A stretch of 33,713 nucleotides of DNA from Bacteroidales bacterium (GTDB lineage: Bacteria; Bacteroidota; Bacteroidia; Bacteroidales; UBA12170), in NCBI GenBank assembly GCA_021158405.1, contig JAGGUP010000104.1, positions 1 to 33,713 of the forward strand. Reading direction: 5' to 3'. The notes below the pieces were generated by a model. It searched no databases. It saw nothing but the letters and a program-made list of their open reading frames with translations, and was not told the origin of the DNA. This document shows, one piece after another, positions 6,099 to 18,063 of this stretch. Numbering within the stretch: position 1 is the first letter of the stretch; each line of letters starts with the position of its first letter. The translations under genes were made by a program, and so were the position numbers.

Positions 6099-7013
6099 TT
6101 AATGAACATCCATGTCGGCTTTCATATAAATCAGGTGTTTAAGCGTAATAAGAATTTCCTGCATATACTCCGTAACAGCTTTTACACTCCCTGGCAATGT
6201 ATAAATTAGAGCTGATCCGATTGTCCCTGCAACACCGCCACTTAGCAATGCATTTGGTTTTAAACTTCCATATTTCATACGAATATGCTCCATAATACCC
6301 GGAATTTCATGATCTAACATTGGTTTAACAACAGAGAGTGTAATATCTCGAGTTCCTATACCAGTGCCTCCTGTTGTGATGATTAAATCGTAATTCTTTT
6401 GCGTTGCATCTTCTATTTGAGCTTGCAATTGCTTCCGATCATCAGCTATAATTTGTTTATCGATGGATAAATCCCAAGCAATTTTTTCAAAAAAAGCAGT
6501 TAATTTTTCAGCAATTAAAGCCCCGCTTTTGTCTTCGTAGATTCCTTTGCTTGCTCTGTCGCTTAAGGTAATTAATTTGGTATGAAATACTTTTGGGACA
6601 TAGTTTAAACAATCTCCCGCCTGTAAGTTTCCTCCTTCCAAAACACGCATAAAAATGCCCACTTTTGGCATTACATAATGGCCTATTTCACGAAAAGAAG
6701 AATGAAAGGGTTTTCCTACCTGGCTGACTTCTAAAATAACACTATCATTAACAAAACGATCGAATGCTTTTACCTTTGTATCATTTAAACCTTCTACCCG
6801 AATATTTTCTGCAAATTCACCGGTTTCGGTTGTTCTGCTCGAAGTTATTTCCCTGAAAGTATCAATGTGGGATTGATCAATCATACTCACCGGACGTGAA
6901 GTATTGGCATGTACATCGCCAATAACACCACTTTTGTTGAGTTCAATTTTCTTTGCTTCGTATTTTCGACCTCTTTCAGCGGCTAGGCTGACGGAAATAA
7001 TTTTTAATTCCAT
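6099..7013 (-). CDS. MOSC domain fused to MogA/MoaB molybdopterin-binding domain
   Basis: From the ATG at 7013 this is 304 residues. Residues 1-140 form a MOSC domain (GDVHANTSRPVSM, GEFAENIRVEGL, GIFMRVLEGGNLQAGD). Residues 145-304 form a MogA/MoaB-type domain with IITTGGTGIGTRD (211-223) and ALLSGGVAGTIGSALI, which bind and adenylylate molybdopterin in molybdenum cofactor synthesis. MOSC domains bind molybdenum cofactor or carry sulfur. This MOSC lacks the cysteines seen in the neighbouring stand-alone copy: it reads GKPFHSSFREIGHYVMP. The ORF could extend 9 residues upstream to 7040, but the -7 box overlaps that start, while AGGAG precedes the 7013 ATG, so I prefer 7013. No other cofactor-synthesis gene is in the window. 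Confidence 0.9.
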   Translation of the reverse strand: MELKIISVSLAAERGRKYEAKKIELNKSGVIGDVHANTSRPVSMIDQSHIDTFREITSSRTTETGEFAENIRVEGLNDTKVKAFDRFVNDSVILEVSQVGKPFHSSFREIGHYVMPKVGIFMRVLEGGNLQAGDCLNYVPKVFHTKLITLSDRASKGIYEDKSGALIAEKLTAFFEKIAWDLSIDKQIIADDRKQLQAQIEDATQKNYDLIITTGGTGIGTRDITLSVVKPMLDHEIPGIMEHIRMKYGSLKPNALLSGGVAGTIGSALIYTLPGSVKAVTEYMQEILITLKHLIYMKADMDVH

Positions 7014-14563: not shown

Positions 14564-16402
14564 ATGTGTGGAATTGTTGGATACATTGGCCCAAAAGAGG
14601 CTTATCCCATTATAATAAAAGGATTAAAAAGATTAGAATACCGAGGATATGATAGCGCAGGAATAGCATTGTCTAACGGTGATTTGAGATTATATAAGAA
14701 AGCGGGTCGTGTAAGCGATTTGGAGGCCAGTGTTAAAGGACTCGATGTTAAGGGTACTATCGGGATTGGCCATACCCGTTGGGCCACTCATGGCGAGCCA
14801 AATAAGGTAAATGCACACCCTCATTATTCGCAGAACAGAACGTTGGCGATGATTCACAATGGAATCATAGAAAATTATGCTTCGCTTCGCGAAGAAATGC
14901 AAGTCCGTGGTCATAACTTTTTGAGTGAAACAGACTCGGAAGTGCTTATTCATCTGATTGAAGATGTTCAGCAATCAGAAAGCGTAGATTTAGTTGAAGC
15001 GGTGCGTATAGCGCTTAATCAGGTGATAGGTGCTTATGCGATTGTAATTTTAGCAAAAGGGGATAATGATACATTAATTGCCGCTAGAAAAGGAAGTCCC
15101 TTGGTCATTGGAATTGGAGAAGATGAGCATTTTATTGCTTCGGATGCAACTCCATTAATCGAATATACCAAAAATGTGGTTTATCTGAATGATGAAGAAA
15201 TTGCTATCATTCCGCGAAATGGAGATATGCGAATCATCACCATTGCAGATCAGGAAAAAACACCTTATATTCAAGAATTGGAAATGAATCTAACTGCCAT
15301 TGAAAAAGGTGGTTACGATCATTTTATGTTGAAGGAGATTTTCGAGCAGCCCCTTTCTATCCGCGACAGTATGCGTGGCCGATTAAGAATGGCTCAGGAG
15401 ACGATTGCTTTAGGAGGAATCTCAGAATATGAAGATAAAATGGCTGCTGCTAAACGAATTATTATGGTGGCTTGTGGAACCTCTTGGCATGCTGCTTTGG
15501 TAGGTGAATATTTGTTTGAAGATATTGCACGTATACCCGTTGAAGTTGAATACGGATCAGAATTTAGATACCGCAATCCGATTATCAATGAAGACGATGT
15601 GGTTATTGCAATTTCTCAATCGGGCGAAACAGCCGATACATTAGCAGCTATTCGCATGGCCAAATCAAAAGGAGCTACCATCATTGGAATTTGTAACGTG
15701 GTTGGATCGAGCATTGCTAGAGAAACAGATGCCGGCAGTTATACCCACGCCGGACCGGAAATTGGAGTTGCTTCAACAAAGGCTTTTACTGCTCAGGTTG
15801 CAGTACTCACTTTAATGGCATTACGATTAGCAAAAAAACGAGGCACTATCGAACGTACCCGTTTTCATCATCTGCTTTATGAACTCGAACAAATTCCTTT
15901 TAAAGTAGAAAAAACTCTGGACGTAAATGAAAAGGTGATGGAGATTGCTAAGCATTTTGTCAATACACGAAATTTCTTGTATTTAGGACGAGGATATAAT
16001 TTCCCCATAGCTTTAGAAGGGGCATTAAAACTCAAAGAAATTTCTTATATCCACGCTGAAGGATATCCGGCAGCCGAAATGAAACACGGCCCTATTGCTC
16101 TTATAGATGAAAACATGCCCGTTGTTGTAGTGGCTACAAATAAAGGTACTTACGAAAAAACAGTCAGTAATATTGAAGAAATACGCGCCAGAAAAGGGAT
16201 CATTATTGCTATTGTTACAAAGGGCGATACGGAAGTAAAACGCTTGGCAGATTATATTATCGAGATTCCCGAAACCGAAGAAATGTTAGTTCCTTTATTG
16301 GCTTCAATCCCTTTGCAATTATTGGCTTATCATATTGCTGTAGATAGAGGTTGCGCAGTGGATATGCCGCGTAATCTCGCTAAGAGCGTAACGGTAGAGT
16401 AG
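14564..16402 (+). CDS. glmS: glutamine-fructose-6-phosphate aminotransferase (isomerising)
   Basis: This 612-residue enzyme makes glucosamine-6-phosphate from fructose-6-phosphate and glutamine, the first step to UDP-GlcNAc for peptidoglycan and LPS. The N-terminal glutaminase starts MCGIVGYIGP, with Cys2 the nucleophile after Met removal, and includes GHTRWATHG. Two SIS sugar-isomerase domains follow, with ISQSGETADT and ALEGALKLKEISYIHAEG. The C-terminus [13 protein letters not shown] is the standard ending. The gene looks intact and full length. A second, decayed copy of its last part (about 100 bp) lies 1.4 kb downstream, after the ATPase gene, so this 3' end may have been replaced by recombination. 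Confidence 0.97.
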   Translation: MCGIVGYIGPKEAYPIIIKGLKRLEYRGYDSAGIALSNGDLRLYKKAGRVSDLEASVKGLDVKGTIGIGHTRWATHGEPNKVNAHPHYSQNRTLAMIHNGIIENYASLREEMQVRGHNFLSETDSEVLIHLIEDVQQSESVDLVEAVRIALNQVIGAYAIVILAKGDNDTLIAARKGSPLVIGIGEDEHFIASDATPLIEYTKNVVYLNDEEIAIIPRNGDMRIITIADQEKTPYIQELEMNLTAIEKGGYDHFMLKEIFEQPLSIRDSMRGRLRMAQETIALGGISEYEDKMAAAKRIIMVACGTSWHAALVGEYLFEDIARIPVEVEYGSEFRYRNPIINEDDVVIAISQSGETADTLAAIRMAKSKGATIIGICNVVGSSIARETDAGSYTHAGPEIGVASTKAFTAQVAVLTLMALRLAKKRGTIERTRFHHLLYELEQIPFKVEKTLDVNEKVMEIAKHFVNTRNFLYLGRGYNFPIALEGALKLKEISYIHAEGYPAAEMKHGPIALIDENMPVVVVATNKGTYEKTVSNIEEIRARKGIIIAIVTKGDTEVKRLADYIIEIPETEEMLVPLLASIPLQLLAYHIAVDRGCAVDMPRNLAKSVTVE

Positions 16403-16443
16403 AATTTTAAATTAGCCCTTAATTTTTTTCCGATTAGTGGTTT

Positions 16444-16452
16444 AGGCAACTA
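16444..16452. repeat. direct repeat AGGCAACTA, left copy
   Basis: AGGCAACTA occurs here and at 17753-17761, bracketing the DUF4143 ATPase gene. This copy contains the ATPase stop codon. It may be a target duplication or a chance match; nine bases is short. Confidence 0.3.
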
Positions 16453-17664
16453 GAATGAAGTACTCAAAAAATCTTTTAGGTGGAGGTGTTCAATTCCTTC
16501 AATATTTCCACCTGCCATTTCATCCATGCTTACTACTATTTTTCGGTGATTATCGTTTATAGATAATAGATTTCCGAATTCTCTTTCCTGTGTTTTTTCG
16601 TTAGTAATTAAATAGGCGCATTGCACATAAATTTTAATACCCGATTTTTCAGCAACAAAATCAATTTCTTTATCCCCAACACTACCTACTGTTATCTTAA
16701 ATTCTTGAAATACTAAGTGCTTTAAAACTACATTTTCAATAAGTTTGTTTATATGCATTGGTTGAAAACCAGTCCACGCGTTGCGTAAACCGAGATCTTC
16801 AAAAAAATATTTTTCGTTAATCTCAAAAATTCTTTTTCCTTGCAAATCAGAACGTGGAACTTTAATAAGATAGTAAGAGTCAAGAATATATGAAATGTAA
16901 TTCGAAATAATTGAAGCCGAAATTTTTTGTCCTTGCGATTTGAGGAACTTGCTAATGCTTGCCGCAGAGAATAAACTGCCCGTATTATCAACCATAAAGC
17001 GAATCAAATTCTCGAGCATAGCTACATTGCGAATCTGATGCCTTTTAATCACATCTTTTAAAAGTACAGTTGCATTAATCGATTTTAGATAATCAAATAC
17101 TACATCATCTTCTAACGGTAGACTTTTTAAATTTGGTAAACCGCCAAATTTCAAATAGAGATGTAAACTAGTGTTATCATTTGCTAATGAGTGAAATTCG
17201 AGAAACTCCAAATAACTTAAACTATGAATACGGATTTCTATATAACGACCGCTTAATCTATCAGCCAGTTCTCCTGTTAGAATTTCAGCATTACTTCCGG
17301 CACACCAAATATCTGCTCGCCCTTCATTTAACAGGCTTCGTAAAACTTTTTCGAATTCTTCAATTTCTTGAACCTCATCAATAAAAACATAGGTTTGTTT
17401 GCCTTCATCAATGGTTTGGTTTAGATAATTCATTAAATCGTTTGCCGATTTGATAAAATCAAATTCCATCAATTCTTTATCGATAAATATTATTTGTGCA
17501 ACAGGATTGATTTTTAAAACCTCATCCATAACCTGCAACATCATATAACTTTTTCCTGTTCTTCGCTGACCAGTAAAGACTTTAATCAAATTTTTATCTA
17601 AAAAAGGGAGCGCTTTTTGTAGATATGATGATCTTTTTATATATGTTTTTTTTGAAAAGCTCAT
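16450..17664 (-). CDS. AAA ATPase with DUF4143 C-terminal domain
   Basis: This 404-residue protein belongs to the widespread AAA/DUF4143 ATPase family, abundant and mobile in anaerobic bacteria and archaea, function unknown. Walker A is GQRRTGKS (32-39), Walker B YVFIDEVQE (92-100), and a sensor-like WCAGSNAEIL follows. The C-terminal region contains GDKEIDFVAEKSGIKIYVQ, like a PD-(D/E)xK nuclease core, though the usual ExK is replaced by a V-Q pair, so cleavage activity is doubtful. It lies antisense just after glmS and is followed by a decayed glmS 3' end, which suggests horizontal gain. Its promoter region holds two matching palindromes around the -7 box. Confidence 0.88.
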   Translation of the reverse strand: MSFSKKTYIKRSSYLQKALPFLDKNLIKVFTGQRRTGKSYMMLQVMDEVLKINPVAQIIFIDKELMEFDFIKSANDLMNYLNQTIDEGKQTYVFIDEVQEIEEFEKVLRSLLNEGRADIWCAGSNAEILTGELADRLSGRYIEIRIHSLSYLEFLEFHSLANDNTSLHLYLKFGGLPNLKSLPLEDDVVFDYLKSINATVLLKDVIKRHQIRNVAMLENLIRFMVDNTGSLFSAASISKFLKSQGQKISASIISNYISYILDSYYLIKVPRSDLQGKRIFEINEKYFFEDLGLRNAWTGFQPMHINKLIENVVLKHLVFQEFKITVGSVGDKEIDFVAEKSGIKIYVQCAYLITNEKTQEREFGNLLSINDNHRKIVVSMDEMAGGNIEGIEHLHLKDFLSTSF

Positions 17665-17668
17665 TCTT

Positions 17669-17730
17669 AAATAAATTAAGTATACTTTATTTATAACACA
17701 AATATACGAAATAAATTAAGTATGCTTAAT
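17669..17730 (-). promoter_or_regulatory. promoter and paired operator-like palindromes of the DUF4143 ATPase
   Basis: The sequence AAATAAATTAAGTAT occurs twice, at 17669-17683 and 17709-17723, exactly 40 bases apart. Each copy starts an inverted repeat: ATTAAGTATACTTTAT (17675-17690, one mismatch) and ATTAAGTATGCTTAAT (17715-17730, arms perfect). A minus-strand -7 box TATATTTG (17706-17699) sits between them. Two sites flanking a -7 box about four helical turns apart suggest binding by a dimeric repressor. No regulator gene is adjacent. Confidence 0.55.
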
Positions 17731-17752
17731 GCAAGAGTAAAAAAATAAAAGA

Positions 17753-17761
17753 AGGCAACTA
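17753..17761. repeat. direct repeat AGGCAACTA, right copy
   Basis: This is the second copy of the 9-base repeat at 16444-16452. It lies between the ATPase promoter region and the glmS remnant. Confidence 0.3.
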
Positions 17762-17783
17762 AGTAATACAATTGTATTTTAAA

Positions 17784-17896
17784 ATTCCCGAAACAGAAGA
17801 AATGCTAGTTCCTTTATTGGCTTATCATATTGCTGTAGATAGAGGTTGCGCAGTGGATATGCCAAGAAATTTGGCTAAATCTGTTACCTGGAATAA
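17784..17896 (+). pseudogene. remnant of a second glmS 3' end
   Basis: Bases from about 17784 match the last part of glmS (16265-16402). The first stretch is nearly identical at the base level. Compared with glmS, 24 bases (8 codons, SIPLQLLA) are missing, exactly between two copies of TTATTGGCTT, which points to slippage. The last codons, encoding PRNLAKSVT, are the same amino acids but differ at almost every synonymous site. Restoring one G before TGGAATAA (17889-17896) would give VTVE and a stop, the normal GlmS ending. So this looks like the tail of a divergent functional glmS allele that later decayed. No start or N-terminal part is present. The rest of the 17665-18094 spacer holds the ATPase promoter and AT-rich sequence. 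Confidence 0.85.
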
Positions 17897-18063
17897 GCGT
17901 ATCATCCTTTTTTATTCGAAATATTAACGTAGAGTATATTTCTAGTATTTTCTTATTTTGATGCTGTTTTAACTCGTAAGTAATTGAATTCAATTTAGTT
18001 TCATTATTGTTATTTTGTTATCAATATAAACGAAAAAGCATAAAGCTATATCGTTGAGTTTAG

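Follow-up and report, generated by a model that had tools for sequence, protein, structure and literature searches.

A candidate defence ATPase gene between glmS and a relic of its 3' end, and a possible route of spread for the PDC-S01 family

Introduction

In the stretch of Bacteroidales DNA analysed here (the window; 33,713 nucleotides (nt) of contig JAGGUP010000104.1, from genome G000), the gene for glucosamine-6-phosphate synthase, glmS, is followed on the opposite strand by an ATPase gene of the PDC-S01 family, beyond which lies a relic of the glmS 3' end. The duplication of the glmS end has two layers, the unit that contains the ATPase gene has boundaries that recur in other surroundings, and duplicated flanks occur in excess beside other members of the family. 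The reading favoured here, with moderate confidence, is that a mobile unit with the ATPase as its single gene was inserted recently at the 3' end of glmS, with duplication of about 100 nt of host DNA and a swap of the gene end. The same type of scar beside other copies suggests a possible route by which the PDC-S01 family spreads.

PDC-S01 is very common, and the family presumably corresponds to COG1373. Passages of PMC12988326 rank PDC-S01 fourth in frequency among the defences of all prokaryotes and describe experimental validation of most PDCs as still pending. In rumen genomes it is the most frequent individual locus, and PDC systems are typically poorly associated with other defence loci, according to passages of PMC13356809. 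In PMC10782964, one row of a table includes COG1373 in a count of genes shared by transfer. PDC-S01 is treated below as an abundant candidate phage defence with a putative defence role.

The glmS end and its relic

The live glmS gene occupies positions 14564-16402 on the forward strand and encodes a protein of 612 amino acids (aa) with full-length relatives at 56-90% aa. An earlier note on this DNA had described a second, decayed glmS 3' end beyond the inverted ATPase gene, and searches bear this out for positions 17784-17896. A repeat search returned two pairs, 16319-16383 with 17814-17878 (65 nt, 92%) and 16265-16304 with 17784-17823 (40 nt, 95%). The relic was matched by glmS in tblastn (E=2.6e-14), and it was matched at 2.1e-22 by a profile of glmS ends run against 44 downstream stretches (31 genomes, several of them twice), among which no other stretch scored below 1.8. 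In a protein search of the same genome at E<=0.001, solely the live glmS and the relic were matched.

Differences between the two copies fall into two layers. The core, which is 102 nt long in the live copy (16265-16366) and occupies 17784-17861 in the relic, both on the forward strand, shows 2 differences in 78 aligned positions and a single deletion of 24 nt in the relic, located between TTATTGGCTT repeats as the earlier note had it. The end layer comprises the last 12 codons of live glmS including the stop (16367-16402) and its counterpart in the relic (17862-17896), which is one base short, the missing base lying before TGGAATAA as also claimed. Here 14 of 35 aligned positions differ, all of them synonymously, and the contrast with the core is significant (Fisher p=6.5e-7). 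The differences are thus unevenly spread, the core having only two. The longest run of identity between live copy and relic is 50 nt, rather than the approximately 40 first reported. It contains GTAGAT (encoding VD), which is found at the corresponding place in none of the 10 relatives compared, and the presence of this motif in both copies indicates that the core is the lineage's own glmS, duplicated.

Comparison of the end layer with relatives gives a different picture for each copy. The relic end has 2 differences to the normal end of the congener G006 and 5-10 to the others; for the live end the count is 8-13 in 36 positions against every one of the 10 relatives. This codon-level comparison leaves out the G007 rows and the gene after the relic, both of which had been read out of frame. 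The two-layer pattern and the comparison with relatives together indicate that the core was duplicated within the lineage and that the last codons of live glmS were exchanged. The copies are thus a single recent duplicate over some 100 nt, and their last 12 codons are those of two different alleles; in live glmS only these 12 codons are of foreign type, and the native type of end is the one kept by the relic. The earlier suggestion that two functional glmS alleles meet here is retained for the last 12 codons, but a meeting of two full alleles is not supported, since the core is the lineage's own duplicate.

The age of the relic can be gauged from four-fold degenerate sites, about 0.6 of which differ between G000 and G004, G005 and G006. 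At that level of divergence an intact relic, in which PRNLAKSVT can still be read, must be recent. Decay of an old duplicate was considered as the origin of the 14 end differences and was ruled out, as all are synonymous and the adjoining core differs at only 2 of 78 positions. A donor of the live end among the sampled congeners was likewise ruled out, the nearest live-type end being that of G004 with 8 of 36 differences.

The exchanged end starts after GTGGATATGCC, a stretch that is identical in 5 of 10 relatives. At the other junction there is a filler of 36 nt between the ATPase unit and the relic (17748-17783), with no homology visible by eye. A second filler lies between the glmS stop and the ATPase unit (16403-16446), its limit set by homology to loci L068 and L081, which stops at about 16447. 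The stretch from the relic to the upstream region of the next gene (17897-18002) is absent in G006, and 10 tests of it against the DNA after glmS in relatives yielded no clear match, the lowest p being 0.045. An AT-rich inverted repeat of 13 nt (92%) is present at the outer edges of the insert, one arm directly behind the glmS stop (16402-16414) and the other where the relic begins (17775-17787), and may be due to chance.

The ATPase unit and its boundaries

The ATPase gene (16450-17664, reverse strand) lies 47 nt beyond the glmS stop and encodes a protein of 404 aa with AAA_14 and DUF4143 domains (Pfam 4.2e-28 and 1.5e-12). The unit, as delimited by homology to copies in other contexts, is the gene plus approximately 83 nt upstream (16447-17747, reverse strand). 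Seven pairs of ATPase genes with 74-88% DNA identity were found in different surroundings, and in these neither flank matches past the unit: homology starts anywhere from 7 nt inside the start to 112 nt before it, and its other limit falls in the range from 39 nt ahead of the stop to 21 nt behind it. Some other pairs do have common flanks, and these look like one locus inherited together. The clearest example is a set of three loci from three genera (L062, L200 and L201) with 90-91% identity, whose homology sets in 73-136 nt ahead of the start and runs 13-14 nt past the stop; at L062 a copy of the target starts at +12, which is where the unit ends. The boundaries of the unit are therefore sharp, and in unrelated contexts similar ATPases have little in common apart from the gene itself and about 100 nt ahead of it.

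Directly upstream of the ATPase start, the repeat search identified two palindromic, operator-like repeats, AAGTATACTT and AAGTATGCTT, at 17669-17730. An upstream inverted repeat whose stem measures 9 nt or more is present at 56 of 109 ATPase loci compared with 21 of 216 intergenic control upstreams (p=5e-16), the stem limit having been taken from earlier inspection and the control upstreams from open reading frames (ORFs) of 150-900 aa. The sequence of the repeat varies among the ATPase loci printed, for which 110 nt upstream were examined. The repeat has the appearance of an operator, or of a site by which the end of the unit is recognised, and self-regulation of the ATPase gene is possible.

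Two further observations concern the surroundings of family members. In L085 and L087, which come from two genomes of a single genus, the same ATPase (94% DNA identity) occupies the same locus, and one of them has an additional 142 nt between the ATPase and the next gene, bounded by a ATTATTTC-like repeat. On Acinetobacter plasmids (L161, L170, L171), a distant PDC-S01 relative (about 33% aa identity) lies between HNH and DUF4236 genes near BREX genes; the same slot holds a hypothetical and a Fic gene in another plasmid and two hypothetical genes in a third, which looked like cassette exchange.

Duplicated flanks across the family

Flanks of family members were compared over 600 nt on each side of the gene, counting direct repeats at E<1e-5. 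By this rule, 24 of 104 testable ATPase loci have direct flank repeats compared with 7 of 191 control ORFs (p=5e-7). The test was not blind in that particular loci prompted the idea and other settings were tried before these were fixed. The loci that prompted it belong to a discovery part of 55, and the replication part consists of 49 loci, members of a second clade as well as of the same family; this second clade, 17 of whose 23 new loci were testable, was reached from L062, which is itself flank-positive. Replication loci alone give 10 of 49 with direct flank repeats (p=3e-4). A tight geometry, in which one copy starts no more than 70 nt past the stop and the other ends 60-240 nt before the start, is seen at 13 of 104 loci (6 of 49 in replication) and at 1 of 191 controls (p=8e-6 and 3e-4), with limits that were chosen after inspection of the loci. 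Repeats in inverted orientation are not enriched at the flanks (2 of 87 ATPase loci and 2 of 171 controls).

Ten duplicate or refetched locus ids were removed before counting, and loci with short flanks were skipped (L059, L078, L087, L115, L132, L135, L149 and L150). A further search that brought up mostly known loci was kept out of the counts. The remaining ATPase loci are not all independent, as a few are closely related and share a site (L121/L128, L136/L141 and L137/L140 among them). Controls were picked mechanically from the same contigs with the ATPase genes masked; they are ordinary ORFs rather than other mobile single genes, and those bordering ATPase units (L109 and L113) were retained.

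The flank repeats range from 29 to 260 nt in length. The duplicated pieces are often gene ends and also include intergenic DNA, the gene names being the author's reading of translations with only the tRNA called by a tool. They include the 3' end of etfA at L069 (a Saganbacteria record), the 3' end of tRNA-Arg(CCT) together with an apparent terminator at L151, the 5' end of creD at L113, glycosyltransferase gene ends at L122 (3') and L109 (5'), the C-terminus of a probably secreted protein at L120, and at L062 a terminator-like stretch that starts at a stop codon. The creD and tRNA pieces were found in exactly two copies in their genomes, one at each flank. A rise of differences towards the unit, as seen at glmS, also occurs at etfA and tRNA-Arg; at etfA the gradient is similar to the glmS one, with a few amino-acid changes among its differences.

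Sites that lack the unit were sought as well. On plasmids of Moraxella and Lactobacillus, no clear empty site was seen among the best 40 of 99 and the best 40 of 66 records, and relatives of the creD locus yielded no useful empty site.

The ATPase protein

The PADLOC match to PDC-S01 (4e-133) covers residues 6-401 of 404. No solved structure was found for the ATPase by sequence at E<=0.01; NCBIfam gave no match at 0.1 and PHROGs no convincing match. An AlphaFold model (mean predicted local distance difference test, pLDDT, of 88) was compared with known structures. Residues 3-299 resemble the archaeal ATPases 2qen and 2fna (Z 17.9, root mean square deviation (rmsd) 3.2-3.4 over 266-268 residues), which we take to be of the STAND kind. 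The C-terminal part, modelled alone (mean pLDDT 83), has a PD-(D/E)XK-type fold with modest scores. It matches VRR_NUC 4qbn (Z 9.0, rmsd 2.8, 87 aligned residues), McrBC 6hz4_M (Z 8.4, 3.3, 115) and Can2 8q41 (Z 8.1, 3.3, 123), and the best Foldseek E is 6e-3. The highest-scoring structure is 2czr, a TBP-interacting protein (Z 9.5), and most of the named high-scoring structures are nucleases of this kind. Residues E310, D335 and Q348 are invariant in 13 of 13 aligned sequences. The ATPase may thus be described as a predicted STAND-like protein with a C-terminal domain of PD-(D/E)XK fold, the scores for the latter being modest. PDC-S01 is also placed in the PD-(D/E)XK superfamily in passages of PMC12988326.

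The glmS locus in the genus

The genus comparison set consists of 11 genomes, one per species and many of them metagenome-assembled, so the congeners are other species. The glmS end is readable in 8 congeners, and the ATPase follows it in three. In G004 a whole ATPase gene is present in the same orientation (84% aa identity), in G005 it is a fragment at the contig edge, and in G006 it is reduced to the last 38 codons and the upstream region (L035, approximately 6253-6436), as expected for a decaying unit. Donors of a glmS end together with an ATPase therefore exist in the genus. An ATPase after glmS was not seen in the DNA read from G001 (partly masked), G002, G007, G008 and G009 (377 nt only). 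In the DNA read, G002, G008 and G009 show a single glmS end, with downstream genes that differ from those in the window. G003 gave no glmS match, and in G010 the match ends at residue 420 at the contig end.

DNA of G006 that matches window position 17745 is joined directly to DNA that matches 18003, which means that the relic and the neighbouring filler are absent in G006. Searches for a hidden relic in G004 and G005 found none (lowest p 0.064 and 0.07). On whether relatives share the remnant, a point raised in the earlier note, none of the readable congeners carries it (with only 159 nt available in G005 and 377 nt in G009), but G007 has what is probably a separate relic of a glmS tail. This decayed tail (L032, 962-1043) lies right after the live stop and ends in GTGGAGTAA (p=0.0012, the best of 30 loci).

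In G004, a protein of 854 aa (L036, 2281-4845) is encoded between the ATPase and the next conserved gene. It contains numerous repeats of DDDGDGV type that by eye resemble thrombospondin type 3 repeats, and it is absent from that place in the window and in G006.

Explanations for the arrangement

Insertion with a long target duplication is the best reading of the locus, and one junction would have used homology to glmS. The inserted unit would comprise little more than the ATPase gene and its own palindrome-bearing promoter region. In this respect the earlier note's proposal of an insertion that gives the live gene another functional end and displaces the original is upheld, with the relic end being nearest to G006 and the live end well removed from every relative. 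The duplication and the swapped end would both stem from one event, the donor would be a relative with an ATPase beside its glmS, and the route would be recombination that was homologous at one end and non-homologous at the other, with a cut by the ATPase/nuclease as its possible trigger. Incoming DNA from such a relative would be joined in frame to host glmS at the conserved stretch around GTGGATATGCC and would supply the foreign-type synonymous last 12 codons. Its other end would be joined, without homology, to an upstream point in a second (sister) copy of glmS. Joins on two sister copies would double about 100 nt of host glmS, leaving live glmS intact and the native end displaced as a relic. 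The ATPase may either drive such an insertion or ride along as a passenger.

Several observations weigh against recent insertion with target duplication. Flank duplication is absent at 80 of 104 ATPase loci, which implies that relics decay fast or that most insertions leave none. The two-copy pieces come from genomes G250 and G062, which are incomplete (68% and 85%). The piece at L206 is partly dispersed, with its first 46 nt in many places, and that at L062 has a partial third copy. Differences do not rise towards the unit at creD, and the pattern is mixed elsewhere. At strain level, no site lacking the unit was seen. Within the protein, the lysine of the nuclease motif two residues after Q348 is missing in 13 of 13 sequences, which depart in this from the catalytic D...(E/Q)xK pattern and leave cutting activity uncertain. 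At the glmS site itself, G004 with its whole ATPase and G006 with its remnant both lack a relic, and the probable tail relic of G007 looks older and separate and has no ATPase at its place. Lastly, the ATPase genes of G000 and G004 are 80% identical in nucleotides, on a par with glmS at 79%. Since the two genes are equally diverged, the ATPase may have been inherited vertically at this site and the relic may have come from a later event.

The last point leads to the alternative that survives best, although it is considerably less probable than insertion. The ATPase may have resided beside glmS since the ancestor of G000, G004, G005 and G006, with the relic arising from a later, unrelated exchange of the tail for DNA of a relative and a local duplication, to both of which the ATPase was a bystander. 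Its shared position in G004, G005 and G006 and the matched divergence are what such residence would produce, and G007 would be a case of a tail relic formed without an ATPase. One would then infer, however, that the ATPase should lie beyond the relic, beside the next gene, rather than between the live end and the relic, and the family-wide excess of flank duplications would have to be a coincidence.

A stronger version of the favoured insertion is unlikely, namely that PDC-S01 ATPases are autonomous transposable elements of one gene that find a gene end, nick it and copy themselves in with about 100 nt of target. The PD-(D/E)XK-like domain, or a partner, would make widely spaced nicks at the gene end. 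Moves between species at the same site would bring along a synonymously recoded end that keeps the target gene working, and a gene end recoded in this way may escape further recognition.

An element with a tyrosine or serine recombinase may instead have inserted in the glmS 3' end, restored it with a copy of the end that the element itself carried, and later lost all but the ATPase. A restored gene end with a displaced original end is the usual product of a site-specific element, which is the arrangement seen at glmS, and a tRNA-Arg 3' end is also among the targets. This history is nonetheless improbable: no recombinase was found among 21 scanned window proteins, the unit boundaries hug the ATPase gene across independent contexts, the targets include 5' ends and intergenic DNA with repeats of 29-260 nt, and the core comes from the host lineage rather than from a site borne by an element. 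Just as hard to credit is the idea that most of the flank repeats were there beforehand, as dispersed intergenic repeats or tandem duplications of a sort common in these genomes, and that ATPase genes simply accumulate at them, for although L206 is partly dispersed and the repeats at L068, L139 and L215 look by eye like intergenic families, controls from the same contigs have repeats in only 7 of 191 cases, the creD and tRNA pieces were found solely at the two flanks, and several duplicated pieces are coding or tRNA ends.

The repeated scar, in which the target is doubled and the gene end is either kept or exchanged, offers a concrete and testable route for the spread of PDC-S01. The abundance of the family in defence surveys may partly reflect self-spread, and if the autonomous reading were true, self-spread would account for how abundant this candidate defence gene, one of the commonest, has become. 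The glmS locus is a clear natural case in which the last codons of an essential gene were swapped for a synonymous set of foreign type, most likely during insertion.

Comparison with known systems

Tn7 inserts at the glmS end (attTn7), at a fixed short distance downstream of the gene, and produces a target duplication of 5 bp. The place of insertion is the same here; unlike with Tn7, the change starts inside the gene, the duplication is about 100 nt rather than 5, and no Tns genes were found. The absence of Tn7-like genes and integrases reported in the earlier note agrees with Pfam scans of 21 distinct window proteins, in which no tnsABCD-type gene, integrase or tyrosine/serine recombinase was detected, the other ORFs having been inspected by eye. 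An island carried by an integrase would likewise leave a restored gene end and a displaced remnant, both of which are present, but no recombinase gene was found among the 21 scanned proteins. Passages of PMC12988326 treat PDC-S01 as a defence candidate and do not mention target duplication. A literature search with little coverage of subscription papers found no title or abstract opening on target duplication by this ATPase family, which does not prove that none exists.

Homology-facilitated illegitimate recombination has been proposed, in passages of PMC5361080, for displaced 3' ends of effector-immunity modules of the type VI secretion system and of Rhs. Under the favoured reading the glmS locus would share with these one homologous anchor and one non-homologous joint; it also has an old downstream part that is shifted and kept as an orphan. 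In those systems the toxin locus supplies the anchor and the encoded product changes with the new part, whereas here the target is a housekeeping gene whose encoded end is unchanged.

The closest precedent for the long target duplication comes from restriction-modification genes (Nobusato et al. 2000, as described in passages of PMC1643837, PMC3154945 and PMC3031569), and the scar connects PDC-S01 with that older observation. Both involve a small gene unit between long direct target duplications of variable length. The cases differ in that PDC-S01 is a STAND-like ATPase family with a PD-(D/E)XK fold, that no empty site at strain level was seen for it, and that at glmS the end of the live copy was exchanged for a synonymous one.

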